Below, one piece after another: positions 12,788-33,792 of a stretch of DNA of 64,000 nt; the stretch's first letter is position 1; every line of letters begins with the position of its first letter. Source of the stretch: Variovorax davisae. Lineage in GTDB: Bacteria; Pseudomonadota; Gammaproteobacteria; Burkholderiales; Burkholderiaceae_C. The translations under genes and the position numbers were made by a program. Below the pieces are notes generated by a model. The model was not told where the DNA came from. It saw only the letters and a list, made by a program, of their open reading frames with translations, and searched no databases. Where the stretch lies: the NCBI RefSeq assembly GCF_030316845.1, contig NZ_JASZYS010000003.1:186001-250000 (forward strand), written 5' to 3'.

Positions 12788-12801
12788 GGCACGCCGGTTG
12801 C
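12788..12801 (+). promoter_or_regulatory. sigma-54 -24/-12 promoter (mannitol dehydrogenase)
   Basis: GGCACGCCGGTTGC: GG and GC are separated by exactly 10 bases, with GGCAC and TTGC boxes. The expected transcript start (about 12813) excludes the ATG at 12798 and supports the ATG at 12831. Confidence 0.8.
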
Positions 12802-12830
12802 CATTCTTCGGCAACACCCGCACTCGCCGA

Positions 12831-14393
12831 ATGAACCAATTAGCTCAGTTGCTATCGACCGACGCCCGGCCGTCCCGCCCGCCGATGGCACGGCTCACGC
12901 GCGCGACGCTCGGCATGACCGCCCCGCAGGCTCGCGTGCCCGGCTTCGGCGCAGGCCCATTGCGTCCCGGAATCCTGCATCTGGGTTGCGGCTCGTTTCA
13001 TCGTGCCCATCAGGCGTTGCTCACGCAGCGTGCCGTGGAGTGGGAACACAGCGCGGCCCGGCGGCTTCAGCGCAGCGAGCCACCCGCCTGGGGCATCGTC
13101 GCGGCGAGCCTGGTCACGAGAAAAACGATCGATGCGCTTGCCGCCCAGGACGGGCTCTATACCCTGCTCGAGCGCGGACCTGAGCGCACCCATGCCACTG
13201 TCGTCGGCAGCATCTGCGAGCTTGTCTATGCACCGGACCGCCCGGAATTTCTGAAGCGCGTATTCGCCGACCCGGCGATCCGGGTGGTGACGCTGACCAT
13301 CACGGTCGCCGGCTACTGCGCCGACGCCGCCAACCGGCTCGACGCCACCCTGGCGTCGGTGCAGCACGACCTCCATGTGCAGCCTAGCACCGCGATCGGG
13401 TTGCTGGTCCAGGGTCTGCGCAAGCGCTGGATCGACGGCGCTGCGCCGCCCGTCATCCTCTCGTGCGACAACCTTCCCGCCAATGGACGGTTGCTGCGCC
13501 AGATGTGCCTGGACTTCGCAGCCCTGCACGGCGAAGACCGCCTGGCCAGCTGGATCGCCACGCACGTGCAGTTCCCCTGCACGGTGGTCGACCGTATCGT
13601 GCCGGTGACCAGCGCCGCAGACCGGATGGACGCGAGCGCCTCACTGGGCCTGATCGATACGGTACCGGTGTGCGCGGAGCCCTTTTACCAGTGGGTCATC
13701 GAGCGCTTCGATGGTGCACGTCCGCGCTGGGACGCAGCCGGCGCGGAGTACGTGTCGAACGTCGAACCATGGGAAGCCTCCAAGTTGCGACTGCTGAATG
13801 GCGGCCACCTCGCGATCGCGAGCCTGGGGAAGATGGCGGGTTGCGCCACGGTGGCCGACGCGATGGCGGTGCCGGGCATATCCGCGTTCGCGCTGCGCTT
13901 TATGCTCGACGAACAAAAGCCAACACTTCCCGCGAGCGATCACGACATCGACGCGTACGCACGGCAACTGCTTGCGCGCTGGCGCAGCCGCGGGGTGGTT
14001 CATCAACTGGACCGGGTGGCGCGCGGCGCTTCGACCAAGCTGCCTGGACGGCTGCTCGCATCCTTGCGGGACAACCTGTGTGCCGGCCGGCCCGCGCCTT
14101 GCACCGTGCTTGCGGTCGCTGCCTGGATGTGTTGCGTTGCCGGCCGCGATGACGCAGGCCAACCGGTCTCCTTGGTGGACGCTATGTGCGCCGAGCTGAA
14201 GCGTCAGGCTGCAGACGCAGTCAACGACCCGGTCCAGCTGGTGGCTCTTATGCTCGCGCAGCCCAGGATTTTTGGCGACGACTTGCCACGCGATTCGGGA
14301 TTGCGACGCAGCCTGCAAGAGGCAGTCGCCATGCTGCAGCAGCAAGGCGTGCGGGGCGCGGTGGCCGCATGCATGGCCGGCCTGCTGCCCTGA
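12831..14393 (+). CDS. mannitol dehydrogenase / fructuronate reductase family oxidoreductase
   Basis: A polyol-specific long-chain dehydrogenase that would interconvert a sugar alcohol or hexonate and its keto form with NAD(H). About 520 residues. The N-terminal nucleotide-binding part contains HLGCGSFHRAHQALL, and the signature KLRLLNGGHLAIASLG carries the catalytic Lys plus the Asn/His pair. The C-terminal domain is all-helical (CTVLAVAAWM onwards). The start is fixed by the -24/-12 promoter just upstream, because longer alternatives begin inside it. Mannitol is a compatible solute and carbon source, so this could link the regulon to osmotic or desiccation stress (inference). Confidence 0.88.
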   Translation: MNQLAQLLSTDARPSRPPMARLTRATLGMTAPQARVPGFGAGPLRPGILHLGCGSFHRAHQALLTQRAVEWEHSAARRLQRSEPPAWGIVAASLVTRKTIDALAAQDGLYTLLERGPERTHATVVGSICELVYAPDRPEFLKRVFADPAIRVVTLTITVAGYCADAANRLDATLASVQHDLHVQPSTAIGLLVQGLRKRWIDGAAPPVILSCDNLPANGRLLRQMCLDFAALHGEDRLASWIATHVQFPCTVVDRIVPVTSAADRMDASASLGLIDTVPVCAEPFYQWVIERFDGARPRWDAAGAEYVSNVEPWEASKLRLLNGGHLAIASLGKMAGCATVADAMAVPGISAFALRFMLDEQKPTLPASDHDIDAYARQLLARWRSRGVVHQLDRVARGASTKLPGRLLASLRDNLCAGRPAPCTVLAVAAWMCCVAGRDDAGQPVSLVDAMCAELKRQAADAVNDPVQLVALMLAQPRIFGDDLPRDSGLRRSLQEAVAMLQQQGVRGAVAACMAGLLP

Positions 14394-14424
14394 CTTCCCC
14401 GAACCGCCCGTGCGGCTGTGATGA

Positions 14425-15327
14425 TCACGCGAGGGCGGTGTCCAGCAGCATCATGATCACGAAACCGAGCATGAGTCCGCCGGTGGCAAATGCCTCATGC
14501 CCCTGGCGATGCGACTCGGGAATAATCTCGTGACTGATGACGTAGAGCATCGCGCCCGCGGCCATGGCCAGCCCCCACGGCAGCAGCCCCTCCGAGAAGG
14601 TGATAAGGGCGGCACCCAACACGGCTGCCACGGGCTCCACAAGTCCCGAAAGTACGCCAAGCCCGACGGCCAGTCCGCGTCCGTAGCCGACCGTACGCAG
14701 CGCCAAGGCCACCACCATTCCCTCCGGCACGTCCTGGATCGCAATGCCGGTGGTCAGCGCTGTCGCCCCCACTGGATCGCTGCCGGCAAACGCCACGCCA
14801 ATCGCCAAGCCTTCCGGAAGGTTGTGCAGGACAATCGCCAAAACGAAAAGCCAGACGCGCTTCATGGCTCGCGCCTGCGGGCCTGCTAGCCCCTTGACGA
14901 AATGCTCGTGCGGTACCGCCCGGTCGATGGCCCATAGCGCCGCCGCACCGGACAGAATTCCGGCGGCAACGATGGCCCCTGCACTCCAACCATTGGCGCC
15001 TTGCGACCTAGCCGCCGCCAGCGCGGGAATGACCAGCGAGAACGAACTGGCGGCCAGCATGACGCCGGCACCGAAGCCGAGCATGGTGTCGTACGTGCGC
15101 TGCGAGAACTGCTGCGACAGCAGAACCGGGAGCGTTCCGAGGGCGGTCGCGAGGGCAGCCAGCAGGCCGCCGATCAACGCGCCCTTCATGCGTGGATCGG
15201 CTTCCAAGCTGGTTGGGAGAGCCTGCCAGCACACGATCCCGAGGCCGAAGACAGACACCGCCATCCCGAACCGCTTGCGAACGTTCCGGCCGCGACGTGC
15301 AGCGCCGGCTTCAATGCTCATGCTCAT
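14425..15327 (-). CDS. ZIP family metal transporter
   Basis: About 300 residues with eight hydrophobic segments. The family signatures are present: IVLHNLPEGLAIGVAF in helix IV and TTGIAIQDVPEGMVVAL in helix V, whose His and Glu residues bind zinc or other divalent metals. It moves metal into the cytoplasm (ZupT-like); specificity cannot be read. The ATG at 15327 overlaps the stop of the upstream small gene by four bases (ATGA), which fixes the start and shows coupling. Manganese supply for the Mn catalase would be an attractive but unproven role. Confidence 0.9.
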   Translation of the reverse strand: MSMSIEAGAARRGRNVRKRFGMAVSVFGLGIVCWQALPTSLEADPRMKGALIGGLLAALATALGTLPVLLSQQFSQRTYDTMLGFGAGVMLAASSFSLVIPALAAARSQGANGWSAGAIVAAGILSGAAALWAIDRAVPHEHFVKGLAGPQARAMKRVWLFVLAIVLHNLPEGLAIGVAFAGSDPVGATALTTGIAIQDVPEGMVVALALRTVGYGRGLAVGLGVLSGLVEPVAAVLGAALITFSEGLLPWGLAMAAGAMLYVISHEIIPESHRQGHEAFATGGLMLGFVIMMLLDTALA

Positions 15328-16355: not shown

Positions 16356-18185
16356 CTAAACCACGCCCGGGATGTGGCTCCGAGAGGCTCGGGTGGCGGC
16401 ATGGATCCGTTCGAGAGGAACCTTGGGCGAGCGGTCGGCATTCAGCAGCCCGTTGGCCTCCTGAAAAGTATCGCTGAACTGTGTGTAGCAGAAGCCGCTG
16501 AAGAGTTGCGCGTGAACGACGGTCTGCAGCAGCGTCTCGTAGAGCGCCGCCAACTCCTGCGCGCTGTCTGCCACCGAGTAGCCCCAGACTTTCTTCGTAT
16601 CGTGCCCGACCGGCATCGACACCGGCAGCGCGTCTGGCGCGGCCCCGGGCTGCTGCGATTTAAAAGCAATGCCTCCGAACTCGGTCAACATGACCGGCTG
16701 CCCTTGGTGAGGGTGGTCGTCCAGGGTAAGGACCCGTCCCGCAGGCCGGCGTTGCGCGAACAGCCCCTCTGGCGCCGTCTCGCCACCGTAGCGCTCGCGC
16801 AGGTGCTCGACATTGGCGTCGTAGTCGTGAATGCCGACGATGTCGGTGGCGCTCGCCTCCCAGCCGTCGTTGCCGATCACGGGGCGCGTCGCGTCGAGCG
16901 TCTTGGTCAGGTGATAGAGCGCCTGCACGGCGTGGCGTTGTACGCCGATGCTCGTCAGGTCTGGAACGCCCCACGACTCGTTGAAGGGTACCCAGACAAT
17001 GACACAGGGGTGGCTGTAGTCGCGGTCGATCGCTTCGGTCCATTCGCGGACAGTTCGCTTGATCGCGGTTCGGGTGAAACGATAGGCCGAAGGCATTTCT
17101 TCCCAGACCATCAGGCCCAGTGTGTCTGCCCAGTACAGGTAGCGCGGATCCTCGATCTTCTGGTGCTTGCGCACACCGTTGAAGCCCATGGCCTTGGCGA
17201 GCTCCACGTCACGGCGAAGCGCATCGTCGTTCGGCGCGGCCAGCAAGGTATCGGGCCAGTAGCCCTGGTCCAGCACCATGCGCAGCAGATAAGGGCGGCC
17301 GTTGAGCATGAACCGGTCGCGCACGATATGCACCGAGCGCAGCGCGGTGTAGGACGTGAAGCTGTCGATCACCTTTCCGCTCTGCGTCAGTCGCACGACC
17401 GCATCGAGCAGCGTAGGACGCTCCGGGGTCCACAACAGTTCATTGCGAAAATCATCGATGCCTGGATCCGACAGGACGATGGACCGGTCGACCTCGCCGT
17501 CGACGACTTGGTAGCGATCACTGGCCAGCAGCCGGGATTCGTGCCGCAATTCAACCTCGATGGCGAGACCGTCTGCCACATCGCCCGCGATGCGGGCTTC
17601 GAAGTAGATCGCGTACCCTTCCACCTTGGGGGTCCAGCGGATCTTGTCCATATAGGTCCTGCCCACTCGCTCCAGCCAGACCATCTGCCAGATGCCCGTC
17701 GTGCGCGGATACCAGATGGCATGGGGAACAGCCTGCCAATCTTGTTTTCCGCGCGGCTGCGTCAGGCTGTGCGGATCGTCTTCGGCCCGCAGCGTGATTC
17801 GTTGCAGGCCCGCCGGGTCGAGCAGGTGCGTGATGTCGGCGAAGAAAGGGGTATGGCCACCCTCGTGCGTACACGCGAGATGCCCATTGACCCAGACCCG
17901 GGCGGCATAGTCGACGGCTCCGAAGCGGAGCAGCACACGCCCGTGATCGGGGGCCAGCTCGACGTCGCGCTGGTACCAGCACACGCTGTGGAAGCCGCGA
18001 TCGCCGATGCCGCTGGCGTCCGACTCCGGCGGATAGGGGACTTCGATCTCGTTCGGCCAGTCGGTGATGTCGGCCGGCGTGAGGAAGCTGCGTTCATCGT
18101 CGAAGCGAAAGCGCCACGGGCCATCGAGCGGTATCCAGGATTCGCGCACCAGCTGCGGGCGGGGGTAGGCGGGAGGGGGTGTCAT
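16356..18185 (-). CDS. glycoside hydrolase family 2 (beta-galactosidase / beta-glucuronidase type)
   Basis: 609 residues. Domains in order: a sugar-binding jelly roll (about 10-180, GPWRFRFDDE, WYQRDVEL, VWVNGHL), an immunoglobulin-like domain (about 180-280), and a TIM barrel from about 285. The barrel has the acid/base Glu in VPFNESWG and the nucleophile Glu in VMLTEFGG. It hydrolyses a terminal beta-linked sugar; no signal peptide is visible, so it is probably cytoplasmic. The ATG at 18185 overlaps the upstream DUF707 stop (ATGA), so the two are translationally coupled and share the sigma-54 promoter at 19108. The large opposite-strand frame over this gene is a shadow. Confidence 0.92.
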   Translation of the reverse strand: MTPPPAYPRPQLVRESWIPLDGPWRFRFDDERSFLTPADITDWPNEIEVPYPPESDASGIGDRGFHSVCWYQRDVELAPDHGRVLLRFGAVDYAARVWVNGHLACTHEGGHTPFFADITHLLDPAGLQRITLRAEDDPHSLTQPRGKQDWQAVPHAIWYPRTTGIWQMVWLERVGRTYMDKIRWTPKVEGYAIYFEARIAGDVADGLAIEVELRHESRLLASDRYQVVDGEVDRSIVLSDPGIDDFRNELLWTPERPTLLDAVVRLTQSGKVIDSFTSYTALRSVHIVRDRFMLNGRPYLLRMVLDQGYWPDTLLAAPNDDALRRDVELAKAMGFNGVRKHQKIEDPRYLYWADTLGLMVWEEMPSAYRFTRTAIKRTVREWTEAIDRDYSHPCVIVWVPFNESWGVPDLTSIGVQRHAVQALYHLTKTLDATRPVIGNDGWEASATDIVGIHDYDANVEHLRERYGGETAPEGLFAQRRPAGRVLTLDDHPHQGQPVMLTEFGGIAFKSQQPGAAPDALPVSMPVGHDTKKVWGYSVADSAQELAALYETLLQTVVHAQLFSGFCYTQFSDTFQEANGLLNADRSPKVPLERIHAATRASRSHIPGVV

Positions 18186-19054
18186 GGCAATGGCCGGGCT
18201 GCGCCGGACGGCGACCCTTCGATCGGATAGGACGGCCAGCCCGTGGCGGGCTGCTGGGCCTGCAGCAGCCACGGCAGAACCTGGGGGTCGCGCGCCCACA
18301 GATAGGACCATCCTTGCGCCAACCGCGCCGCCAGCGCGGCCGGCCCGAGTTCGCAACGTCGAAAGTCTGCATCGACGATCTGGAAGGTCGCATGGACCTG
18401 CGCACACTGGTACGCGGACATGATGTGGTCGGACTCGGCTCGTACACGCGCGCCGAGCGTGGCATCACGGAACATGCCCACCGGGCGCGTATGCAGCACC
18501 GCAGCGGCATCCAGGATGCCGAGGTTACGGTACGCCAGCAACTTGGGCCATAGCGAATCCAGGCCCCACCCCCATCCGGTCTCGCTCAGATCCAGCGTCG
18601 GGAGCAGCCGGGCGAGCGCGTCGGCGCTGAAGCACGGAACCATGATTTCAACGAAACCGGTCTCGCGGGCAAAGCAGCACTGGTTGCGCAGGGTGTCGAA
18701 ATGCGCGTAGTACGAACTCTCGTGCAACGCAGGCGCACACAACTGAAATGACAGTGCCGAGGCCAACTCGAAGATTTTGTCGATGGTAGCCTGGCTCGCA
18801 AAAATGTCGTCGTCGGGCAGCCAGACGTAATCGTAATCGCGCCAGCCGTGCCAGCCATTGAGCAAGGCGCGCAATCCCGTCCACTTGGGACCCGCGATCA
18901 CCTCCCCGACCGTGCAATCGAGTTCGCCTTGGGGCGCCAGTGGCTCGTACGGGCACAGATACAGGTCCCAGGAGCGTGGCTGCCCCGCCGAGAGCCATGA
19001 CGGATGAAGGGAACTGCGCCCGACGCGGGCGACGACCAGGTATCGACGGGACAT
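18182..19054 (-). CDS. DUF707 family protein (glycosyltransferase-like)
   Basis: 290 residues. It opens MSRRYLVVARVGRSSLHP, with the family motifs GPKWTGL, YDYVWLPDDDIFASQ (a DxD-like acidic cluster) and GFVEIMVPCFSADAL, then GWGWGLDSLWPKLL. DUF707 proteins resemble GT-A glycosyltransferases but lack an assigned reaction. It is first in an operon with the GH2 gene and reads from its own -24/-12 promoter, divergent from a second DUF707 gene. The two copies are clearly paralogous but diverged. Confidence 0.85.
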   Translation of the reverse strand: MSRRYLVVARVGRSSLHPSWLSAGQPRSWDLYLCPYEPLAPQGELDCTVGEVIAGPKWTGLRALLNGWHGWRDYDYVWLPDDDIFASQATIDKIFELASALSFQLCAPALHESSYYAHFDTLRNQCCFARETGFVEIMVPCFSADALARLLPTLDLSETGWGWGLDSLWPKLLAYRNLGILDAAAVLHTRPVGMFRDATLGARVRAESDHIMSAYQCAQVHATFQIVDADFRRCELGPAALAARLAQGWSYLWARDPQVLPWLLQAQQPATGWPSYPIEGSPSGAARPLP

Positions 19055-19107: not shown

Positions 19108-19121
19108 GCAATCGGCATGCC
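19108..19121 (-). promoter_or_regulatory. sigma-54 promoter (DUF707-GH2 operon)
   Basis: On the minus strand GGCATGCCGATTGC, with GG and GC 10 bases apart and a TTGC box, 54 bases before the ATG at 19054. Confidence 0.75.
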
Positions 19122-19150: not shown

Positions 19151-19164
19151 GGCACGTCGCTTGC
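19151..19164 (+). promoter_or_regulatory. sigma-54 promoter (second DUF707 gene)
   Basis: GGCACGTCGCTTGC, a near-consensus -24/-12 element 48 bases before the ATG at 19212. It stands back to back with the promoter at 19108. Confidence 0.8.
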
Positions 19165-19211: not shown

Positions 19212-20159
19212 ATGCGCAATTACCTAGTGTTCGTACGAGCCGGAAGAAACTCCCTTCATCCGGAAATGATTGCCGAAGACCCTGATCGAAACTGGGATTG
19301 CTGCGTCAATGGGTGGGAGGCCCCCCCAGGCAGCACGGCCCGGGATTTCGGTGCCGAGCGCTTTCAGCCTGGCGCCCTGAACAAATTCGAGGCCTTTTCC
19401 GACATGTGTCGCGGCTCGGCCGCGGGCGTCGGCTACCGCTACGTGCTGATGATCGATGACGACCTTCGGTTCAAGCCAGGGGATGTGTCGCGCTTCTTCG
19501 AGCACTGCGAGCGCAACGACCTGTTCCTGAGCCAGCCCGCGATTGCCTGGGGCAGCAACAGCAATCACCTGATCAATATCTGCAACCCCGTGTGCACGGT
19601 GAGGGGGGTCAATTTTGTCGAGGTCATGGCCCCGTGCTTCTCACGCGAGGCGTTGGACCGGCTGCTGCCGACGTTCCTGCTCACGCGGTGCACCTGGGGC
19701 ATCGACTACGCATGGTCCTCCCTGCTCGACGGGCTCGGCCGGATCAGCATCGTCGATGCAGTGGCCATGGACCACACCAAACCCATGGACCGTGCGGAAG
19801 GGCCGTTCTATCGCAAGCTGCGCAGCATGAACGTCGACCCCGACGAAGAGCTTGCCGAGGTGGTTCGCACCCATGCGTCTTGGGGGGAGATGCAATCGCT
19901 GAAGGGAGGGCATCGTTACCGGTGGCCTTTGCCGCAGGCGCTGAACCAGCACTTGGTCGCCTGGATGGAAAAGCACAAGATCCAGCAGCATCTGGCGCGG
20001 GGTGGCACGATCGCGCCGCAAAGCCCGGTGAGCCCCGGGACACCGGTCACCCCCGCGCAGGCAGCCAAGTTTGCCGACCCGACTGCGGCCTCGGTTCCGC
20101 GTGCTGCCGGCGTGACGACCCTGGCCACGCTGGCGGATGGACTGGTGCGGCGCGACTGA
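19212..20159 (+). CDS. DUF707 family protein (glycosyltransferase-like)
   Basis: 315 residues. MRNYLVFVRAGRNSLHPEM matches the start of the divergent paralogue; YRYVLMIDDDLRF holds the acidic cluster and NFVEVMAPCFSREALDRLL plus TWGIDYAWSSLL complete the pattern. The last 60 residues form a Pro/Thr/Ala-rich tail of low complexity absent from the other copy. The start is placed 48 bases after a -24/-12 promoter. Function is unproven; both copies lie beside glycan genes. Confidence 0.85.
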   Translation: MRNYLVFVRAGRNSLHPEMIAEDPDRNWDCCVNGWEAPPGSTARDFGAERFQPGALNKFEAFSDMCRGSAAGVGYRYVLMIDDDLRFKPGDVSRFFEHCERNDLFLSQPAIAWGSNSNHLINICNPVCTVRGVNFVEVMAPCFSREALDRLLPTFLLTRCTWGIDYAWSSLLDGLGRISIVDAVAMDHTKPMDRAEGPFYRKLRSMNVDPDEELAEVVRTHASWGEMQSLKGGHRYRWPLPQALNQHLVAWMEKHKIQQHLARGGTIAPQSPVSPGTPVTPAQAAKFADPTAASVPRAAGVTTLATLADGLVRRD

Positions 20160-20190: not shown

Positions 20191-20844
20191 TCAAGCGAGC
20201 AGTCGCGCGACGGCATGCAGGTCCGGCAGCACGGCCAGGCATCTGGCACGCATTTCCGGGGTCGGCGGGAGAAGGTCGGGCACCATGATGACCGGCATTG
20301 CTGCCGCGGAGGCGGCACGCACACCGTTGTACGAATCTTCGAGCGCCAGGCAGCGGGTAGGCGGACAGCCGAGTCGTCGCGCCGCGAGCAGATAAAGGTC
20401 GGGCCACGGCTTTCCCTGCGCGACATCGTCGCGCGTGACGACCGTGCTGAACCAATGGGCCAGGCCGGCGCTCAGGAGGTGGTGCTGCGCCTTGGAACGG
20501 CTCGATGAGGTGGCGACTGCGCGCGGCGTGCCGGCGGCGTCGAGTTGGGCAAGCAGGGCCGCTGCGCCAGGTTGCATCTGCATCGCCCCCGCGTCAATCT
20601 GCGCCTGCAGGTGCCGCGCTGCGCCCTCGAACAATGCGTCCGCAGGTACGTCCGCGCCATAGCGCTCGATCAGCAGGGCACGGCAGCCGTCCAAGGGCAC
20701 GCCGATCATCAGCGAGCAGACAGAATCCGACAAGGCAAGCCCAACTTCGGGTCCGGCAAGCCGCAGAGCTTGCCGAGCAAGAATTTCCGTATTGATAAGC
20801 AGTCCGTCCATGTCGAAGACGACGGCGCAAGGCTTGGCCGACAT
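20191..20844 (-). CDS. HAD superfamily phosphatase / phosphomutase-like
   Basis: 217 residues of the HAD subfamily I type. Motif I is VVFDMDGLLINTE (nucleophile Asp plus the general acid Asp two residues on), motif II VATSSSR, motif III Lys in DVAQGKPWPDLY and motif IV ALEDSYNGVRAA. The helical cap follows motif I, as in beta-phosphoglucomutase and sugar-phosphate phosphatases. The substrate is probably a small phosphorylated sugar. The start at 20844 is the ATG nearest motif I. A weak sigma-54 element lies 101 bases upstream. Confidence 0.88.
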   Translation of the reverse strand: MSAKPCAVVFDMDGLLINTEILARQALRLAGPEVGLALSDSVCSLMIGVPLDGCRALLIERYGADVPADALFEGAARHLQAQIDAGAMQMQPGAAALLAQLDAAGTPRAVATSSSRSKAQHHLLSAGLAHWFSTVVTRDDVAQGKPWPDLYLLAARRLGCPPTRCLALEDSYNGVRAASAAAMPVIMVPDLLPPTPEMRARCLAVLPDLHAVARLLA

Positions 20845-20944: not shown

Positions 20945-20958
20945 GCAATCGGCGCGCC
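20945..20958 (-). promoter_or_regulatory. possible sigma-54 promoter (HAD gene)
   Basis: On the minus strand GGCGCGCCGATTGC: spacing and TTGC fit, but the -24 box is GGCGC and the distance to the gene is long (101 bases). Confidence 0.35.
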
Positions 20959-20968: not shown

Positions 20969-20982
20969 GGCATCTGGTTTGC
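20969..20982 (+). promoter_or_regulatory. sigma-54 promoter (PH-domain gene)
   Basis: GGCATCTGGTTTGC, correct GG-N10-GC spacing with a TTGC box, 57 bases before the ATG at 21039. Confidence 0.55.
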
Positions 20983-21038: not shown

Positions 21039-21506
21039 ATGAACGTGAAGGACAACACCCGATACCGGTCGGAGGTCGCGACCGTCTGGGTCGTGCTGGC
21101 GGCGGCCTGCGTCTTCGCCTTTTACGTCGGCTGCGCGCTCAGTTCGGAAGGGGCCGGGATGGGGTCCACCCTGCGCTCGGCCGCGCTGGCCGTGTCGGTT
21201 GCTCTGGTGGCCGGGGCGGTGCCGTGCCGCTACACGTTGACGCCCGATGCGTTGCGCTTGCAGGCCGGCTTCTACGTGCGCGAGATCCCGTACACGGACA
21301 TCTTGGCCGTCACTCTCGAACACGGCTGGACGTGGGCGCCCGCTCTGTCTGCGAACCGCATCGTGTTGCACCATGCAAGCGGCAGCGTGCGAATCTCGCC
21401 GGTGTGCCAACCTCAATTCCTCGTCGACCTGGCCCGCCGCCTGCAGGGGACGCGGGGATCGGACCTGCGGCTCGATCTCGCGGCCTCCGCCAAGACGCAA
21501 CCATAG
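21039..21506 (+). CDS. bacterial PH-domain membrane protein
   Basis: 155 residues. Two membrane helices near the N-terminus (VWVVLAAACVFAFYVGCAL and SAALAVSVALVAGAV) precede a PH-like domain of the bPH type: YTLTPDALRLQAG, REIPYTDILAV, ALSANRIVLHH and ISPVCQPQFLVDLARRL. These motifs are typical of small proteins annotated as PH domain-containing. The role in the membrane is unknown. The start at 21039 follows a -24/-12 element; the longer frame has no support. Confidence 0.75.
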   Translation: MNVKDNTRYRSEVATVWVVLAAACVFAFYVGCALSSEGAGMGSTLRSAALAVSVALVAGAVPCRYTLTPDALRLQAGFYVREIPYTDILAVTLEHGWTWAPALSANRIVLHHASGSVRISPVCQPQFLVDLARRLQGTRGSDLRLDLAASAKTQP

Positions 21507-21563: not shown

Positions 21564-21577
21564 GGCACGCCGCTTGC
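21564..21577 (+). promoter_or_regulatory. sigma-54 promoter (glycosyltransferase gene)
   Basis: GGCACGCCGCTTGC, an excellent -24/-12 match, 43 bases before the ATG at 21620. Confidence 0.82.
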
Positions 21578-22807: not shown

Positions 22808-22821
22808 GGCATACCCCTTGC
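22808..22821 (+). promoter_or_regulatory. sigma-54 promoter (DUF378 gene)
   Basis: GGCATACCCCTTGC, correct spacing, 42 bases before the ATG at 22863. Confidence 0.72.
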
Positions 22822-24173: not shown

Positions 24174-24187
24174 GCAATCCGCGTGCC
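24174..24187 (-). promoter_or_regulatory. sigma-54 promoter (Mn catalase)
   Basis: On the minus strand GGCACGCGGATTGC, a near-consensus element 59 bases before the ATG at 24115. Confidence 0.78.
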
Positions 24188-24609: not shown

Positions 24610-24623
24610 GCAATCGCCATGCC
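24610..24623 (-). promoter_or_regulatory. sigma-54 promoter (hypothetical gene)
   Basis: On the minus strand GGCATGGCGATTGC, correct spacing and TTGC box, 37 bases before the ATG at 24573. Confidence 0.7.
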
Positions 24624-25721: not shown

Positions 25722-26876
25722 TCAGCTGGCGACGCCAGGGGGGATCAGAACCGCCTTGATGCAGTTGTCCAGCTTGCTCGAGAAGATGTGATAGGCGTCT
25801 GCGACCTCTTCGAGCGGCATGCGGTGAGTGATGACCCGGTGCGGCTCGATGCGTCCCTCCTGGATGTGCTCAATGAGCCGCGGCAGGTGCCGCTTCACGC
25901 TGGCTTGGTTCATTCGCAGCGTAAGCCCCTTGTTGAGCGCGTTACCGATCGGCACCATGTTGAAAGTCGGGCCGTAGGCGCCGACGATCGACACGTTCCC
26001 CCCCTTGCGCACCGAATTGATGGCCCAGTGCAGCACGGTCGCAGCGCCCGCCTGAAGCTTGATCTTGACGCCGGTCAGGCTTTGCAGCGCGCTGCCGCTG
26101 GCCTCGGCACCGACGCAGTCGATGCACACGTCAGGCCCCAGCCAGTCGGTCATCTTCTTCAAATGAACCGCCATGTCGTCGACGTATTTGAAGTCGACGA
26201 TTTCGCACTGGGCGAACTTGCGGACGAAGTCGAGCCGGTAGTCGACGCAGTCGATGACGATCACGCGCCCCGCGCCCAACAGCCACGCAGACTTGGCGGC
26301 GAAGATACCCACCGGGCCCGCACCGAACACGACGACCGTGTCTCCCTCCCGGATCCCACCCATCTCCGCGGCCTGGTAACCGGTCGGAAACGCGTCCGTG
26401 AGCATCACGGCATCCTCGAGCAGCATTTGATCGGGAATCCGGGTGGGACCGACGTCGGCCATCGGCACGCGCACGTACTGCGCCTGGCCCCCCTGGTAGC
26501 CGCCCGCGGTGTGCGAATACCCATAGATGCCGCCCACCGCGGTCGCCTGTGGATTGACGTTGTGGCAGTTTCCGTACAGTTCTCGCTGGCAGAAGTAGCA
26601 GGTGCCGCAGAAGATATTGAACGGCACCAGCACCCGGTCGCCTCGTTTGAGGTTGCGCACCGACTCGCCGACTTCGATCACGGTTCCGACGAACTCATGG
26701 CCGAAGGTGCTTCCGACGCGCGTGTCCGGTACCAGCCCGTGGTAAAGATGGAGATCGGAGCCGCAGATGCACGAGCGCAAGACCTGGACGATAGCGTCGT
26801 TGGGATGCTCGATCTGCGGTTCCGGCGTTTGGACGGCGCGTACGCGGTACGGACCTCGATAGCTCATTGCCAGCAT
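25722..26876 (-). CDS. zinc-dependent alcohol / formaldehyde dehydrogenase family
   Basis: 384 residues of the medium-chain dehydrogenase family. Catalytic zinc ligands: CICGSD and GHEFVGTV. Structural-zinc cysteines: CGTCYFCQRELYGNC. NAD(P)-binding: VVVFGAGPVGIFAAK. The insert and length match the glutathione-independent formaldehyde-dehydrogenase-like or zinc alcohol dehydrogenase subgroup that oxidises small alcohols or aldehydes. It is first in an operon with a membrane protein and has a plausible -24/-12 element 35 bases upstream. The NtrC gene lies just beyond, on the same strand. Confidence 0.92.
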   Translation of the reverse strand: MLAMSYRGPYRVRAVQTPEPQIEHPNDAIVQVLRSCICGSDLHLYHGLVPDTRVGSTFGHEFVGTVIEVGESVRNLKRGDRVLVPFNIFCGTCYFCQRELYGNCHNVNPQATAVGGIYGYSHTAGGYQGGQAQYVRVPMADVGPTRIPDQMLLEDAVMLTDAFPTGYQAAEMGGIREGDTVVVFGAGPVGIFAAKSAWLLGAGRVIVIDCVDYRLDFVRKFAQCEIVDFKYVDDMAVHLKKMTDWLGPDVCIDCVGAEASGSALQSLTGVKIKLQAGAATVLHWAINSVRKGGNVSIVGAYGPTFNMVPIGNALNKGLTLRMNQASVKRHLPRLIEHIQEGRIEPHRVITHRMPLEEVADAYHIFSSKLDNCIKAVLIPPGVAS

Positions 26877-26910: not shown

Positions 26911-26924
26911 GCACGTGGCGTGCC
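26911..26924 (-). promoter_or_regulatory. probable sigma-54 promoter (alcohol dehydrogenase operon)
   Basis: On the minus strand GGCACGCCACGTGC: spacing and -24 box are perfect, but the -12 box is GTGC instead of TTGC. It lies 35 bases before the ATG. Confidence 0.5.
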
Positions 26925-26939: not shown

Positions 26940-28337
26940 TCAGCGCTGGTAGTCTTTCAGTCTTGTATAGAGCGTCTTCGTGCTGATGCCCAGCAGCGCA
27001 GCCGTCCGCTCCTTGTGCTGGCCGCAGCGTTCGTAGTTGGCGAGGATGACCTGGCGCTCGATGTCCGCCAGCGGCGTGCCCAAAGCCACCGTGATCCGAT
27101 CCGCGCCCGCCGGCGCGGGCGTTGGATCAAGCGCCAGGAGGTCAGGGGCCGCCGGGTCGACGGCCGGCGATGCTGACGGGTTGCCGCCCGACGGCAGCCA
27201 CTCTTCGTCGATGACTTCGCCGGTGGCCATCACCCAAGCGCGCTGGATCGCATTTCGCAGCTCGCGAACGTTGCCGGGCCAACGGTAGTTGCGCAGGCCG
27301 GCCAGCGCTTGCGGAGTCATCTGCTTCACCGCGCTCTCCTGTTGGCCGAGTTCATGTAGGCAACGACAGGCAATCAGCTCGATGTCCTCGCCACGCTCGC
27401 GCAGCGGCGGCAGTCCGATCGGAAAGACATTCAGCCGGTAAAGCAGATCCTCGCGCATGCGACCCTGTTCCACCTCGTGGGCCGCCTCACGGTTGGTGGC
27501 CGCGATGATGCGAACGTCCGTCTGTTGCAACTCGGTGGATCCGACCCGCATGAAAGTGCCAGTCTCGAGCACTCGCAACAACTTGACCTGCAAGGCGAGC
27601 GGCATCTCGGTCACCTCGTCCAGGAACAAGGTACCGCCATGGGCCTTTTCGAAGAACCCTTTGTGCTGCCGCTCCGCCCCGGTGAAGGAGCCGCGCTCGT
27701 GGCCGAAGATCTCGCTTTCGATCAGGTGCGAGGACAGCGCGCCGCAGTTCACCGCCAGAAATGGTTGCTCGCGCCGGCGGCTGAGGTCATGAATCGCGCG
27801 CGCCACGAGTTCCTTTCCGGTGCCGCTCTCGCCATGTATGAACACCGTGACGGCGGTGCCCGCGACGCGTGAAATCTGCTGGTAGACGCGTTCCATTGCC
27901 TGCGAGCGCCCGGTCAGCTGCGCAAAAGTTCCGCTCTCCTGCCACGCTTGGCGGACTTCGTCGAGCTCGGCGCGCAATTGCGAGGGGGCGATCAGACGTG
28001 CCAGCACACCTTTCAGGTGGTCCGGATGGATCGGCTTGACCAGGTAGTCCGCGGCACCGAGCCGCAAAGCCTTGATAGAGGTTTCGAGGCTGGCGTGTCC
28101 AGTCATGAGGACTAACACGGTGTCGCGCAGGACCTCAGTGTCTTCGAGCAGCTCAAGCCCATGGCCGTCGGGCAGGTGCAAGTCCAGAAGCAGCAGATCG
28201 GCGCGCTGCATGGCAAGCTTCTGGCGTGCCGCTCGCAGCGAAGGCGCATACATGACAGTGTGCCCCTTCCGTGCGATGACCGCCCCGATCATCCGTGCGG
28301 AGTCTTCGTCGTCCTCGACGATCAGCGCATGGCTCAC
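26940..28337 (-). CDS. NtrC-family sigma-54-dependent response regulator
   Basis: 465 residues: a receiver domain (1-120) with phospho-acceptor Asp 52 in LLLLDLHLPDGHG and Lys 101. An AAA+ domain (about 140-375) follows with Walker A GESGTGKE (169-176), the sigma-54 contact loop GSFTGA (216-221) and Walker [10 protein letters not shown] (234-242). A Fis-type helix-turn-helix at the end reads [20 protein letters not shown]. All parts needed to drive open-complex formation with sigma-54 are intact. It lies 66 bases downstream of the mini-kinase gene and is the most likely activator of the -24/-12 promoters of this region. A frameshifted paralogue lies at 44072. Confidence 0.96.
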   Translation of the reverse strand: MSHALIVEDDEDSARMIGAVIARKGHTVMYAPSLRAARQKLAMQRADLLLLDLHLPDGHGLELLEDTEVLRDTVLVLMTGHASLETSIKALRLGAADYLVKPIHPDHLKGVLARLIAPSQLRAELDEVRQAWQESGTFAQLTGRSQAMERVYQQISRVAGTAVTVFIHGESGTGKELVARAIHDLSRRREQPFLAVNCGALSSHLIESEIFGHERGSFTGAERQHKGFFEKAHGGTLFLDEVTEMPLALQVKLLRVLETGTFMRVGSTELQQTDVRIIAATNREAAHEVEQGRMREDLLYRLNVFPIGLPPLRERGEDIELIACRCLHELGQQESAVKQMTPQALAGLRNYRWPGNVRELRNAIQRAWVMATGEVIDEEWLPSGGNPSASPAVDPAAPDLLALDPTPAPAGADRITVALGTPLADIERQVILANYERCGQHKERTAALLGISTKTLYTRLKDYQR

Positions 28338-28403: not shown

Positions 28404-28766
28404 TCAATCGCCCAGGCGCTGTGAGAGCAGGCGCAACCTGTCTGTCAGAGTGGTCAGACGCGCCAGTTGCCTTCGAAGTACGTCCAAGGCTTCCTGTTCA
28501 GTGGTTGCGTCGCCGCTGTTCAACAATTCGAGAGCAATTGCCATCGCCCCCAAGGGCGTGCGAAGCTCATGGTCGAGTCGCTGCGCCTCCCGCGCCTCTT
28601 CAGACCGGCGGGCCCGCACCTCGGCCAGCCGGACGTTTGCTTGGCGGGTCCCCTCGGGCGTGCCACGCCCCAGCCACGCGAGGCCGCCCAGACCCACCAG
28701 CAGCCACCAGCCGACATTCCGGCTCCTCGGAACCGAACGAACCGGCGAACTCTGAATGTTTTTCAT
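28404..28766 (-). CDS. membrane-anchored HisKA (DHp)-only protein
   Basis: 120 residues: one membrane helix near residues 18-33 (VGWWLLVGLGGLAWLG), a charged linker, then a dimerisation/phosphotransfer domain with the H-box DHELRTPLGAMAIALELL (His 66). The protein ends there (LSQRLGD). No HATPase domain follows in any frame: only 66 bases separate it from the NtrC gene. It therefore cannot bind ATP itself. It may be a phosphotransfer or dimer partner of a kinase elsewhere, or a sink or brake for the NtrC receiver. A paralogue with the same architecture and gene order lies at 45507, which argues that the short form is functional and not a truncation. Confidence 0.8.
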   Translation of the reverse strand: MKNIQSSPVRSVPRSRNVGWWLLVGLGGLAWLGRGTPEGTRQANVRLAEVRARRSEEAREAQRLDHELRTPLGAMAIALELLNSGDATTEQEALDVLRRQLARLTTLTDRLRLLSQRLGD

Positions 28767-28941: not shown

Positions 28942-28955
28942 GGCACGCCGGTTGC
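28942..28955 (+). promoter_or_regulatory. sigma-54 promoter (glf)
   Basis: GGCACGCCGGTTGC, the same 14-mer as the mannitol dehydrogenase promoter at 12788, 41 bases before the ATG at 28996. Confidence 0.82.
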
Positions 28956-28995: not shown

Positions 28996-30132
28996 ATGCA
29001 CTTCTCATCTGCCGGTAGCGGGCGCTTTGACTATCTGATCGTGGGCGGCGGCTTCGCCGGCTGCGTGCTTGCGGAGCGGCTGGCCAGCCAACTCGGACGC
29101 CGCGTGCTGATCGTGGACCGGCGCGATCACATCGGCGGCAACGCCTATGACGGCTTGAACGAAGCCGGCGTCATGGTGCATCGTTACGGACCGCACATCT
29201 TTCACACGAATTCATCGGCGGTGTTCGAGTACCTCTCGCAGTTCACCGAATGGCGCCCTTACGAACATCGCGTATTGGCCGAGGTAGACGGCCAGCGCCT
29301 TCCGATGCCGATCAATTTGACCACCCTCAACCGCCTGTTCGGACTGACGCTTGACTCCGCTGGCGCAGCGGAATTCCTCGCCGCACGAGCGGCCACCAGC
29401 GCACGCATCGAGAGTGCGCGGGACGTGGTCGTGAGCCAGGTGGGCGAGGAGCTGTACCGCAAGTTCTTCGAGGGCTATACGCGCAAGCAGTGGGGCCGGG
29501 ATGCCTCCGAGCTCGACAGGTCGGTCACGTCGCGCGTGCCGACTCGCACCGATGCCGACGACCGCTACTTCCAGGACAAGTTCCAGTTCATGCCGCTTGC
29601 AGGCTATACCCGGATGTTCGAGCGCATGATCGATCACCCCGATATCACGTTCATGCCAAGCACCGATTATGCGGACGTGAGGCACACCATCGCGCACGAC
29701 CACCTGGTCTATTCGGGGCCGGTCGATGAGTACTTCGACTTCTGCTATGGCCGTCTGCCTTATCGCTCGCTACGCTTCGAACACGCGACGCTCGAACAGG
29801 AACGTTTTCAGGAGGTGGCGGTGGTCAACTATCCGTCGCCGGAAGTTCCCTTTACCCGCATCACAGAATACAAGCAACTCACCGGGCAGCAGCACCCCTG
29901 TACCAGCATCACGCGCGAGTTCCCGACCGCCCACGGTGACCCTTACTACCCGATCCCGGCACCCGAGAACGCGGCACTGTACCGGCGCTACGAGAGCCTC
30001 GCCGAGAAGACGCCTGGCGTCACATTCACCGGACGACTGGGTACCTACCGGTACTACAACATGGATCAGGTCGTCGCACAGAGCTTGAAGCTTTTCAGCC
30101 GTCTCGCAGAGCAGGCCAGCGTTGCCGCGTGA
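28996..30132 (+). CDS. glf: UDP-galactopyranose mutase
   Basis: 378 residues. A flavoenzyme that converts UDP-galactopyranose to UDP-galactofuranose, the donor for galactofuranose-containing glycans. FAD site: YLIVGGGFAGCVLAERL. Family motifs: HIGGNAYDG, RYGPHIFHTN, KFFEGYTRKQWG, PVDEYFDFCYGRLPYRSL, and the C-terminal GRLGTYRYYNMDQVVAQSL. The start is the ATG reading MHFSSAGSGRFDYL, after the -24/-12 promoter. Control by sigma-54 and the absence of a surrounding O-antigen cluster are unusual; the glycosyltransferase at 21620 shares the promoter type. Confidence 0.95.
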   Translation: MHFSSAGSGRFDYLIVGGGFAGCVLAERLASQLGRRVLIVDRRDHIGGNAYDGLNEAGVMVHRYGPHIFHTNSSAVFEYLSQFTEWRPYEHRVLAEVDGQRLPMPINLTTLNRLFGLTLDSAGAAEFLAARAATSARIESARDVVVSQVGEELYRKFFEGYTRKQWGRDASELDRSVTSRVPTRTDADDRYFQDKFQFMPLAGYTRMFERMIDHPDITFMPSTDYADVRHTIAHDHLVYSGPVDEYFDFCYGRLPYRSLRFEHATLEQERFQEVAVVNYPSPEVPFTRITEYKQLTGQQHPCTSITREFPTAHGDPYYPIPAPENAALYRRYESLAEKTPGVTFTGRLGTYRYYNMDQVVAQSLKLFSRLAEQASVAA

Positions 30133-30297: not shown

Positions 30298-30311
30298 GGC
30301 ACGAGGGTTGC
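30298..30311 (+). promoter_or_regulatory. sigma-54 promoter in front of rpoN
   Basis: GGCACGAGGGTTGC, correct spacing, 27 bases before the rpoN ATG at 30338. It implies auto-regulation by this sigma factor or control by a second RpoN. Confidence 0.75.
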
Positions 30312-30337
30312 GTCATGGGCTGGCCAACGGAGATTTC

Positions 30338-31780
30338 ATGAGCGCCCCGAAAATGCAAGCCCGCCTCTCGCAAACGGCCTCCTTTTCGCCGCGGCTCCAA
30401 CAGGCCGTCCGATTGCTTCAGATGTCTACGATGGACTATGCGCAAGCGCTTCTCGAGGCCGCACAGGCCAACCCGTTCCTTGAGGTCGACGACAGCGCCG
30501 TCCCCTCAGCGGATGAGGACCGGCTGGCGGACGCACCTCTCACGATTCCTGGAGATGCCGAGATCGACTGGGCGCAGCGGCTGGATCGAATGGGCGATCA
30601 AGGTCCGCCGTCTGCCCAGCGCCTGTCCCATGACGAGAGTTTCGACCATCTGCAGCATGCACCCGCCCCCGTCAGCCTGCGCCAGCATCTTCATGCGCAA
30701 CTGGGCGTGCTCCGGCTGGACGCTCGCGACGGGGCCTTTGCGCGCGCTGTGGTCGAGGCTTTGGACGACGACGGCTATCTGCGCGTCTCTCTCGAGGAGC
30801 TGGGCACCGCATTCGGTGAATCAGGCGTCGACGAGATGCGCGAGTGGCGGATGGCCCTGCGCCGCGTCCAGGCGCTCGACCCATTGGGCGTAGCGGCACG
30901 CACCGTTTCGGAGTGCTTGTCGCTCCAGTTGGAGCGCGCGAATGACCCTGCACTTCGCACCCTCGCACGGCGCATCGCGCGCGATCACCTGGACCTCCTT
31001 GCCGCCCGCAAACTCGCCAAGTTGAGCGCGCTGCTCGGGACAGAGGATGCTGCCGTGCAACGCGCCGTGGAATTCATCCTCGGCTTGGAGGCGCGCCCCG
31101 GTTCGCGGTTCAGCGAAGGGGCTGCCCGCATCGTGGTGCCGGACGTGATCGTGCGCAAGGTCAGGGGGGTCTGGAAGACGGCGCTCAACGGATCGGCGAT
31201 GCCGCGTGTGCGCGTTCACGAGTCATACGCCGAGATGTTCGAAAAGCACCGTCAACACGATGATGCGGCGCTGAAGGATTGCCTGAACCAGGCCCGTTGG
31301 ACCGTGCAGAACGCCGCCCAACGGGTCTCGACGGTTCTGGAGATCGCGATGGCGATCGTAGAGCGGCAAAAGCTCTTCCTCGAATATGGCGAGCTGGCTA
31401 TGAAGCCGCTCGGTCTGCGCGAGGTGGCTGATGAAGTGGGCGTGCATCCTTCCACTGTGTCGCGCGCCGTGCACCACAAATACCTGGCGACACCGCACGG
31501 CGTTTTCGAGTTGCACCACTTTTTTTCACGCGGGATGGTCCATTCAGGCGGTGGTGAGAGCGCTCCGATCGCACTGCAGGCTCTTATCCGCGACCTCATC
31601 GGGAGCGAGAGCGCAGATACGCGATGGAGCGACGCCGCGCTGGCGCGTGAACTCTCACAGCAGGGCTTTCGCATCGCTCGCCGAACGGTCACCAAATATC
31701 GGCAGGGCCTCGACATCGAGTCCGTGGAGCGTCGACGGGGCGCGAGCGACCTTCGACTCGCTGCAGGCTTGTCGTCCTGA
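30338..31780 (+). CDS. rpoN: RNA polymerase sigma-54 factor (RpoN paralogue)
   Basis: 480 residues. Region I is present at the N-terminus (LSQTASFSPRLQQAVRLLQM), followed by a short acidic linker, the core-binding domain (about 100-290) and a helix-turn-helix (LREVADEVGVHPSTVSRAVHHKY). The RpoN box ARRTVTKYRQ is near the C-terminus. The TVTKYRQ sequence departs slightly from the usual TVAKYRE, which could alter -24 recognition. It is not linked to the lptB/hpf/ptsN genes that flank the housekeeping rpoN, so it is probably a second copy. Start: GGAG six bases upstream. Its own promoter is of the -24/-12 type. Confidence 0.95.
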   Translation: MSAPKMQARLSQTASFSPRLQQAVRLLQMSTMDYAQALLEAAQANPFLEVDDSAVPSADEDRLADAPLTIPGDAEIDWAQRLDRMGDQGPPSAQRLSHDESFDHLQHAPAPVSLRQHLHAQLGVLRLDARDGAFARAVVEALDDDGYLRVSLEELGTAFGESGVDEMREWRMALRRVQALDPLGVAARTVSECLSLQLERANDPALRTLARRIARDHLDLLAARKLAKLSALLGTEDAAVQRAVEFILGLEARPGSRFSEGAARIVVPDVIVRKVRGVWKTALNGSAMPRVRVHESYAEMFEKHRQHDDAALKDCLNQARWTVQNAAQRVSTVLEIAMAIVERQKLFLEYGELAMKPLGLREVADEVGVHPSTVSRAVHHKYLATPHGVFELHHFFSRGMVHSGGGESAPIALQALIRDLIGSESADTRWSDAALARELSQQGFRIARRTVTKYRQGLDIESVERRRGASDLRLAAGLSS

Positions 31781-32329: not shown

Positions 32330-32492
32330 CACTCGCGGCCCGCCCGTAGGGCCAGCGTGCGCGCGTGGAGGGCGCCGTCCTACTGGCGGGAAGCGGTCGC
32401 ACCTGGATTCACCTGTCTCAGTTCTCATTGGCTATGAAGATCGATACAGAGATCGTTCACCCGTGGCAATCTTTCAAGACAATGCCTCTCGC

Positions 32493-32678
32493 TCATTTTT
32501 CAGGGACGAATTTACTGACGGTGACCGATACAGGATCGCTTGCAGGGAAAGACTCTTCAACTCCGGAGTCGAGAGCCTCCTCCGAAGGCACCAACACCGT
32601 AGGCGCGTCGGCCACAGGGAGGGGACTATGGGACTGGGCGGTCGGGAAAGGCCACGGAGCTGGGGATAAGTCAGGCAT
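32493..32678 (-). CDS. small stress-type protein with ESFPASDP motif
   Basis: 61 residues, proline-rich at first, ending with SEEALDSGVEESFPASDPVS. The E-SFPASDPV-motif defines a family of tiny proteins frequent in proteobacterial stress islands; its function is unknown. The ATG at 32678 has AAGGA seven bases upstream, which decides it over the longer frame. Confidence 0.7.
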   Translation of the reverse strand: MPDLSPAPWPFPTAQSHSPLPVADAPTVLVPSEEALDSGVEESFPASDPVSVTVSKFVPEK

Positions 32679-33122
32679 GGAAATCCTTTCTAGGTTTTGC
32701 CCAGTGTTGCGCCCCCTGACGTCGCCCCGATCGGCCTCCCGTCGGTGCCCTTGCTGTTGTGGAAGCGGCGCTTTTGTATATCTGGGTTTAGTACTGCTCA
32801 TTTAGTAATGTCCTTCTTGACCAAATTTACGACCACGCGTATCGACGCCTAACCACTTGACGCGTAAGCCGCTTAGAACAGCGGTTCGTAGAAGCCGCAC
32901 TGAAGGGCGCGGCCTTGGCAGAAGCAGATGATCGAAGCGGTCTGCGCAGCTGGGCGCTGCCGGAAGAGGAAGTGTGTACCGAGTGCTCTCCCAGGAGCGA
33001 GATTTAGGAGTCGTGCTCCTCGGGGCAAACGGCAAGCCCAAGTCGGTTTCCCGGTGTGAGCGCCCGGTGTTAGTTCTTCCCTTGCCGGTGGGAGGCTGTA
33101 AATTGCTGGCGCTGCATTCCGC
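32679..33122. other. intergenic region without a recognised gene
   Basis: About 440 bases between a small stress gene and a response regulator. Base composition drops in GC near 32790-32830. I found no credible ORF, RNA gene or repeat; only the -24/-12 element just after it is informative. Confidence 0.5.
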
Positions 33123-33136
33123 GGCACGCCGTTTGC
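33123..33136 (+). promoter_or_regulatory. sigma-54 promoter (response regulator gene)
   Basis: GGCACGCCGTTTGC, near-consensus, 21 bases before the ATG at 33157 and 36 before an alternative ATG at 33172. Confidence 0.78.
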
Positions 33137-33156
33137 CCTATCAGGTTTTTCGCAAA

Positions 33157-33792
33157 ATGACGCTGGCCCCAATGATCCCTCGCATCCGCATTGGCATTGC
33201 CGACGATCACGCCCTTGTTCGACTGGCCTTGCGCGACCTTCTAGCAACCCACAACGACCTGTGCGTGGCAGGTGAGCGATGGAGAGGCTGCCCTGGCGCT
33301 GGTGGCGAGAACGCCCATCGATGTACTCATCTTGGACGTGGCCATGCCTGCACGGAGCGGTCTCGACGTTCTGGCCTGGCTGCAGATCCGTGCGCCTGAA
33401 GTGGCGATCCTCGTATTCACCGGGCACCCGGCCGACCCATTTGCGGGCTTTGTCATGCGCATGGGCGCGCGGGGCTTTCTGAACAAGCTCTGCGACCCGA
33501 TAGAGGTGGTCCACGCAGTTCGAACCTTGGCGAATGGCAAACACCACTTTCCATCTGAGGTGGCTGAATTCTTGGCCAAACAACCGCCCCGGTGCGCCCC
33601 ACCGCACCGGCACTTAACAGACCGGGAGTTTCAGGTCTTCTACCGGTTGGCGATGGGAGAACGGGCTTGCACGATTGCAGCCGAGCGGTTAACAGCGTTA
33701 GCCGAAACCGCGCTCGGGCGATGGCCAAGCTCCAGCTCAAGTCGCGCAGCGAGCCTACCTATTACGCCCTTAAACATGGCCTACTGGCATAG
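33157..33792 (+). pseudogene. NarL/FixJ response regulator with two frameshifts
   Basis: Frame one carries the receiver start (IRIGIADDHALVRLALRDLL). After about 33270 the next frame gives SDGEAALALVARTPIDVLILDVAM with the phospho-acceptor Asp, then LVFTGHPADP and the HTH start LTDREFQVFYRLAMGE. After about 33690 a third frame finishes the LuxR-type helix-turn-helix (RAMAKLQLKSRS, YYALKHGLLA). Joined, it would be about 212 residues and resembles the intact regulator at 47622, with the same YYA-KHGL ending. It has its own -24/-12 promoter. Confidence 0.8.

Follow-up and report, generated by a model that had tools for sequence, protein, structure and literature searches.

A putative RpoN2 regulon with its own class of sigma-54 promoters around a second rpoN gene of Variovorax davisae

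The window analyzed here is a whole stretch of 64,000 nucleotides from Variovorax davisae (assembly GCF_030316845.1, contig NZ_JASZYS010000003.1, positions 186,001 to 250,000 of the forward strand). It carries a second gene for sigma-54, called rpoN2 here, inside an island of 20.6 kb in which -24/-12 elements of the sigma-54 type are crowded in front of genes. We propose, at a probability of about 0.72, that this is an RpoN2 regulon with a promoter class of its own, whose targets vary between relatives and in which manganese (Mn) catalase recurs. RpoN2 would transcribe the cluster of genes surrounding its own gene, and its promoters would form a private class (class B) which usually lacks T at -26 and has C at -11 (TTGC-C), and which in the genus often has a CCG spacer, GGCAYGCCGNTTGCC. 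The preference of the housekeeping RpoN would be for TTGC-W, and the -11 base would in that case help to hold the two promoter sets apart. An activator of the NtrC type encoded nearby may drive the opening of the promoters.

Promoter classes and the presence of RpoN2

The strongest evidence for RpoN2 as the probable reader of the TTGC-C class, and for a regulon that would reach beyond the island, was obtained by comparing 101 congeneric genomes, 31 of which hold an RpoN2 relative (E 1e-95 or better). GGCAYGCCGNTTGCC was found 152 times in 186 megabases (Mb) of these 31 genomes and 108 times in 465 Mb of the 70 genomes without RpoN2, with medians of 0.77 and 0.17 per Mb (p 4e-9, uncorrected for kinship and with the RpoN2 loci included; genome sizes are rounded in all density figures). 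The broader pattern VGGCAYGN4TTGCC was also denser where RpoN2 is present (3.67 vs 2.63 per Mb, p 8e-5, RpoN2 loci included), whereas TTGC-W sites did not differ (4.26 vs 4.15 per Mb, p 0.63). When the stretches round RpoN2 were removed (40 of 125 sites), the mean density of GGCAYGCCGNTTGCC was 0.61 against 0.23 per Mb (p 4e-5) and that of the broader pattern was 3.82 against 2.69 (p 0.002); this test covers 22 of the 31 RpoN2-positive genomes, and loci wider than the stretches still count as outside. A promoter set of its own, distinguished at -11 as expected of a specialised paralogue, is what was found for RpoN2 at the level of association.

These comparisons bear on the alternative that the housekeeping RpoN mainly reads the elements, with rpoN2 as a near-redundant passenger and the -11 base reflecting the activator or the local composition. 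The general GG-N10-GC form is kept at all sites, the second rpoN of Ralstonia solanacearum is reported to have no observed role (PMC4676750, PMC4371752) and the L1 loop of the activator lies close to the -12 DNA in a published complex (PMC5505868), all of which would suit it. We consider it quite unlikely, as the presence of RpoN2 is tracked across the congeners by CCG-spacer TTGC-C sites and not by TTGC-W sites, and as RpoN2 has fixed changes in its DNA-binding motifs and a promoter of its own across its clade.

The original prediction, made from the letters of the window, had described thirteen elements with GG-N10-GC spacing, most of them fitting GGCAYGCCGNTTGC, as a near-identical set that suggests a dedicated regulon. 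All thirteen were present on base-by-base checking; they are real and far beyond chance. They have the GG-N10-GC form of sigma-54 promoters, with TTGC at -12 in 12 of the 13 as described, the exception (26911-26924) reading CGTGC. The description that most fit GGCAYGCCGNTTGC is fair, since 5 of the 13 match it exactly and 9 with at most one mismatch, and the distances to the start codons had been given rightly within one base (20-58 bases to the ATG, and 100 in one case). The site of rpoN2 itself at 30298 belongs to another class (class A, with T at -26 and with G at -11). The claim that no comparable element lies elsewhere in the window had to be dropped, because three more were found at 46.2-48.5 kb (46238, 47596 and 48494, all on the minus strand), each followed after 28-32 bases by an ATG that opens a frame of 62-100 codons.

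The window contains 12 copies of the pattern GGCAYGN4TTGC, where shuffled sequences gave a mean of 0.61 and none of 100 shuffles reached 12. In the genome (7.18 Mb, 44 contigs) it occurs 60 times and its reversed control 14 times, and 9 of the 60 fall in the island (198.7-219.3 kb of contig C23) where 0.15 would be expected (Poisson p 8e-14), so the clustering that had been predicted is borne out. The proposed scan with a matrix built from the thirteen sites was run on the same contig and gave 11 matches of at least 16 bits in the island against 6 in the other 576 kb, the island sites having trained the matrix (leave-one-out scores 5.8-21.5 bits); the reversed control gave one match over the whole contig. 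A chance or compositional clustering in GC-rich DNA is most improbable: the mild excess of the looser GGN8TTGC in the window (61 vs 50.6 expected) would fit it, and it is contradicted by the reversed-pattern and shuffle controls and by the mainly intergenic position of the sites in relatives (47 of 56 in the family stretches described below, where gene borders were taken from a simple in-house gene finder). Scans of the window for Rfam families and tRNA genes gave no matches, hence no island bounded by tRNA is evident.

Two sets of relatives were used for the distribution around RpoN2. The family set contains 20-kb stretches round RpoN2 from 20 relatives (19 belonging to other genera and one congener), and the genus set contains 20 congeners, none used before, which were fetched afterwards; one of these (L169) is, judged by length and RpoN2 identity, the same plasmid as L127 (CP099607) and was omitted from the count of 4/79 given below and kept in the other genus totals. 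GGCAYGN4TTGC was found 56 times in the family stretches and 80 times in the genus stretches, against a single reversed control in each, and in the family stretches its density is 13 times that of the remaining parts of these genomes. The core of the original prediction, a dedicated regulon round rpoN, is well supported by the recurrence of dense sites at the RpoN2 loci of 20 + 20 relatives and by the richer RpoN2-positive congeners; the prediction falls short, as stated, on the identity of the activator as NtrC, on a conserved gene theme and on the confinement of the elements.

Within these loci the two promoter classes are separated at -11. The island has 12 sites besides that of rpoN2, with a base other than T at -26 in 12/12 and with C at -11 in 10 and T in 2. 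C at -11 was likewise found in 42/47 (family) and 60/63 (genus) of the sites other than rpoN2's own, in contrast with 0/20 (family) and 1/22 (genus) of rpoN2's own sites (looser pattern). In the genus T at -26 marks rpoN2's own site (19/21 vs 3/63 of the others) and the CCG spacer is a feature of the genus as well (33/63 vs 7/47 in other genera, p 5e-5); the window sites follow the genus rule at -26 and -11. Counted the other way, W at -11 is found at 0/9 sites of the island against 26/51 elsewhere in the genome (p 0.004), at 5/56 sites of the family stretches against 309/1187 elsewhere (p 0.003), and at 4/79 sites of the genus stretches against 84/176 in a comparison set made of the present genome outside the island and two congeners without RpoN2 (p 1e-12). 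The same count restricted to contigs C23 and C8 gave no clear difference, and the genome-wide counts settled the matter.

The RpoN2 clade and the control of its gene

Three rpoN copies were tracked in the genome, one on contig C10, rpoN2 in the island (30338-31780) and a remnant in the window (46414-46506). The RpoN2 protein is a sigma-54 by its domains, PF00309, PF04963 and PF04552 all scoring above cut-off, and its RpoN box reads ARRTVTKYRQ, of the form ARRTVxKYR. It also passes the NCBIfam subfamily model NF009118 (445.3 vs 396 bits), so the protein group is already recognised by sequence. By score (cut >320 bits), 57 of the 299 family genomes contain a relative of RpoN2, and five of the family genomes (G053, G078, G119, G183, G282) have two RpoN2-like copies by score.

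A quick tree built from 51 sequences places the 34 RpoN2 and the 16 housekeeping sequences on two sides, with values of 100 and 99 in the Shimodaira-Hasegawa-like approximate likelihood ratio test (SH-aLRT). The outer row is a single distant match (34% identical) from a scan of named genome contigs, and "housekeeping" was assigned from the tree together with genomes having one rpoN match. RpoN2 of the window thus belongs to a separate clade with separate motifs and not to the housekeeping group. ARRTVTKYRQ is present in 34/34 RpoN2 sequences and ARRTVAKYRE in 16/16 housekeeping ones, the recognition helix reads HESTISRVTTAKY in the housekeeping RpoN and HESTVSRVTNNKY in most of the RpoN2 clade, and NN replaces TA right behind this helix in most RpoN2. 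In a solved sigma-54, cross-links to promoter DNA can be formed at E378 and R383 (PMC5505868). Of the 20 fresh congeners, 16 have P and 4 have A at the position corresponding to E378, and the exact ARRTVxKYR is absent from 4 of the 20.

The gene of RpoN2 has a sigma-54 promoter of its own. Of 33 clade loci, 29 have a -24/-12 element in front of rpoN2, and the housekeeping rpoN has one in 0/16, while the reversed pattern gave 2 and 4; among the congeners the element precedes rpoN2 in 19/19 (L065, with an unreadable start, was dropped from the 34 clade loci, and L178 from the 20 congeners). This promoter is of the other class, having no C at -11. Farther upstream the palindrome TTGCNGCAA is found in 19 of the 33 clade loci, where 256 palindromes of the same shape gave a mean of 0.5 and a next best of 6, and in 14 of the 19 congeners, where the next best of the same shape was 8. 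This palindrome, which many relatives share, probably binds the activator, in which case activation of the circuit would raise RpoN2 itself. The upstream regions of rpoN2 in congeners also contain GCAA-N3-TTGC, which may be a second element or a part of a wider one. Before the window's own promoters CCGGCAA was seen in 6 of 13 regions as a candidate for a shared upstream element and was set aside, because it overlaps neighbouring sigma-54 sites.

The activator, which the original prediction had called NtrC, is an enhancer-binding protein of the NtrC type, with PF00158, a GSFTGA loop and PF02954. The name itself did not hold, as the curated NtrC model scores 387.2 bits against a cut-off of 558.6, and the protein is also below the curated cut-offs for AtoC, ZraR and the PEP-CTERM regulator. 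Activators with 52-73% identity to it were located near RpoN2 in 11 of the 24 first-set stretches, with one further partial match that is cut off, and in 20/20 congeners the activator, a HisKA-only protein and the divergent rpoN2 stand together. The two HisKA-only proteins of the window (28404-28766 and 45507-45854) are without an ATPase domain and may be a phosphotransfer step; such a protein and a hybrid kinase of the CheB/CheR/PAS type probably pass phosphate to the activator.

TTGCNGCAA was rejected as a general enhancer of the regulon, since it lies upstream of 3 of 99 other sites in relatives. This, together with window promoters that have no shared upstream element, the variable gene content round RpoN2 and an activator in only 11 of the 24 first-set stretches, fits a loose set of stress and envelope genes under several activators, in which RpoN2 supplies the polymerase and the neighbouring activator serves rpoN2 only. 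Such an arrangement finds some support outside the genus; it is opposed by the linkage of the activator to rpoN2 in 20/20 congeners, and we regard it as unlikely.

The RpoN2 regulon may also take the shape of a cascade from one sigma-54 to another, which we put forward tentatively, with slightly less than even confidence. The housekeeping RpoN, with the activator at TTGCNGCAA, would transcribe rpoN2 from its class A promoter, and RpoN2 would transcribe the class B set. As class B differs at -11, and in the genus at -26 too, one or two bases would be enough to switch the sigma-54. The recognition helix may have changed in step, from HESTISRVTTAKY to HESTVSRVTNNKY, with the change of E to P or A in the genus going along with the CCG spacer.

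The present strain also has a second, decayed copy of the module. This copy (44072-46506) consists of an activator in two frames with the usual recognition helix, a HisKA-only protein and the rpoN remnant with ARRTVTKYRQ. The intact activator of the window has STKTLYTRLKDY in its recognition helix, where [ML]KTLYNRL is found in 11 relatives, in the decayed copy and in 19 of 20 congeners (one being unreadable). With the copy of the usual helix broken and the intact copy diverged, it seems that only a diverged module survives in this strain and that the genus-type one is lost. The activator tree, from which L166, L168 and L169 were omitted, did not resolve the two window copies and has one row (L173) on a very long branch.

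Gene content and points against the regulon

The island genes include an enzyme of the mannitol dehydrogenase family, two DUF707 proteins, a HAD phosphatase, a PH-domain protein, a glycosyltransferase, a DUF378 protein, Mn catalase, a Zn dehydrogenase and UDP-galactopyranose mutase. From such genes a theme of Mn catalase, glycan synthesis and polyol metabolism had been proposed. The Mn catalase part recurs, being present in 12 of 21 congener stretches of 20 kb, and the polyol and glycan genes do not (0-1 of 21): mannitol dehydrogenase, UDP-galactopyranose mutase, both DUF707 proteins and the HAD phosphatase are in 0/21, and the glycosyltransferase is in 1/21 and recurs in 7 stretches of other genera. 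Of the 21 genus stretches, 17 contain a homologue of the hybrid kinase near rpoN2, and 17 contain CheB, which may partly be the CheB domain of the hybrid kinase itself. A sigma-54 site lies upstream of Mn catalase 5 times, of CheB 12 times and of the hybrid kinase 8 times in the genus stretches. The gene predicted at 33157 has its site; as a gene it is a broken response regulator, with 80 codons followed by another frame.

In other genera the sites precede genes for hemerythrin, DUF2383, DUF883, BON, PRC, AsmA and kinases among others. Several of these downstream families are, we presume, associated with stress survival. A role in stress or in the stationary phase can be suggested with modest confidence from the families seen (hemerythrin, DUF2383, DUF883, BON, PRC, Mn catalase and Ku), which stand out weakly against the control set.

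Several observations weigh against the RpoN2 regulon as proposed. Of the 12 island sites that remain when rpoN2's own is set aside, T stands at -11 in two and TTGC is missing from one, and the further site at 48494 has T at -11 likewise. T at -26 is not distinctive in the family (2/9 of rpoN2's own sites vs 6/47 others, p 0.6). The presence test is uncorrected for kinship, and genomes without RpoN2 still hold the 108 GGCAYGCCGNTTGCC sites. With gaps of 0-15 other palindromes reach 12/33 in the family, and GCAA-N3-TTGC ties with TTGCNGCAA at 14/19 in the genus. The scarcity of TTGCNGCAA at the other sites makes the activator no more than a candidate for most targets, TTGCNGCAA was not found at the rpoN2 of the window, and no significant shared or palindromic upstream element was found before the window's own promoters. 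The intact activator of the window has a changed recognition helix. The tree tool flagged long branches that meet. DUF2383, hemerythrin and DUF883_C are each downstream of 3/62 sites, which is a small excess (in the control set DUF2383 has 1/62, and hemerythrin and DUF883_C are not among the 25 of 70 families listed).

Known systems and feature positions

The usual picture of sigma-54 is of a single factor that serves many unrelated genes by way of many activators. The present clade of paralogues, which spans many genera of a single family, appears to have a promoter class to itself. Its own gene stands behind a sigma-54 promoter, and in the present genus an activator lies next to it. The about 40 loci allow the sigma factor, the -11 base and the upstream palindrome to be matched, and cross-talk between sigma-54 paralogues becomes directly testable. 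No description of the RpoN2 clade, the promoter class or the enhancer was found among the titles and abstract openings listed by searches of open-licence papers.

More than one rpoN copy was present in about 5% of organisms in one survey (PMC12316311), and several rpoN genes in one genome are already known from Burkholderiales (PMC3162934, PMC9850573). The likeness to the paralogues of Rhodobacter, Aquincola and Ralstonia given here is by description. In Rhodobacter (Cereibacter) sphaeroides RpoN1 serves nif genes, RpoN2 serves flagella and RpoN3 goes with AprX, each with its own targets and activator, and the -11 position is already known to separate the RpoN1 and RpoN2 promoters (PMC11999139, PMC3162934). 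That species is an alphaproteobacterium. What distinguishes the Variovorax paralogue is its place within the presumed target cluster, a sigma-54 promoter for its own gene, and neighbours that are neither nif nor flagellar genes. Aquincola tertiaricarbonis RN12, of the Burkholderiales, has four RpoN paralogues with target-specific use, of which RpoN1 is used with the PEP-CTERM gene pepA; pepA has TGGCAC and CTGCTT motifs and the PrsK-PrsR pair (PMC9850573, PMC9012009). The window activator differs from the PrsR system, scoring 346.4 against the PEP-CTERM regulator cut-off of 502.6.

The megaplasmid RpoNp of Bradyrhizobium sp. DOA9 is an accessory rpoN with 22 predicted targets and a link to stress adaptation (PMC13207237). 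It differs in being alphaproteobacterial, and it is likened here by description; the Rhizobium plasmid RpoN proteins among the matches listed are 32-34% identical to RpoN2 of the window. The rpoN2 of Ralstonia solanacearum is a second rpoN, not interchangeable with the first, for which no phenotype is reported to have been found (PMC4676750). The positions of all features are given in Table 1.

Table 1. Positions of the rpoN2 module, the sigma-54 sites and the related genes in the window
Feature	Position	Strand	Details
rpoN2, second sigma-54 gene, RpoN2 clade	30338..31780	+	RpoN box ARRTVTKYRQ, helix-turn-helix (HTH) HPSTVSRAVHHKY
rpoN2's own -24/-12 element, class A	30298..30311	+	T at -26, G at -11
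Enhancer-binding protein	26940..28337	-	Receiver, sigma-54 AAA+ domain with GSFTGA, Fis-type HTH; helix STKTLYTRLKDY
HisKA-only protein	28404..28766	-	Phospho-acceptor domain, no ATPase domain found; N-terminus hydrophobic by eye
Class B site	12788..12801	+	Precedes mannitol dehydrogenase-family gene 12831-14393
Class B site	19108..19121	-	Precedes DUF707 gene 18182-19054
Class B site	19151..19164	+	Precedes DUF707 gene 19212-20159
Sigma-54 site, T at -11	20945..20958	-	100 bases ahead of HAD hydrolase gene 20191-20844
Weaker sigma-54 site GGCATCTGGTTTGC, T at -11	20969..20982	+	Precedes bPH_4 gene 21039-21506
Class B site	21564..21577	+	Precedes glycosyltransferase gene 21620-22783
Sigma-54 site	22808..22821	+	Precedes DUF378 gene 22863-23111
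Class B site	24174..24187	-	Precedes Mn catalase gene 23201-24115
Class B site	24610..24623	-	Precedes unassigned gene 24277-24573
Sigma-54-like site, GTGC -12 box	26911..26924	-	Precedes Zn-dependent dehydrogenase gene 25722-26876
Class B site	28942..28955	+	Precedes UDP-galactopyranose mutase gene 28996-30132
Class B site	33123..33136	+	Precedes frame-broken response regulator gene, 33157-33795
Further sigma-54 site	46238..46251	-	Outside the thirteen
Further sigma-54 site	47596..47609	-	Outside the thirteen
Further sigma-54 site, T at -11	48494..48507	-	Outside the thirteen
Decayed second activator, two frames	44072-44890 + 44871-45422	-	Within second-copy stretch 44072..45854
HisKA-only protein of second copy	45507-45854	-	No ATPase domain
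Second rpoN2 remnant, 31 residues	46414..46506	+	Contains ARRTVTKYRQ
CheB-like gene	48615-49610	+	
CheB/CheR/PAS/histidine kinase/receiver protein, 1542 amino acids	49636-54264	+	

A Ku-family gene was also observed near the island, at 37465-38178 of the window.

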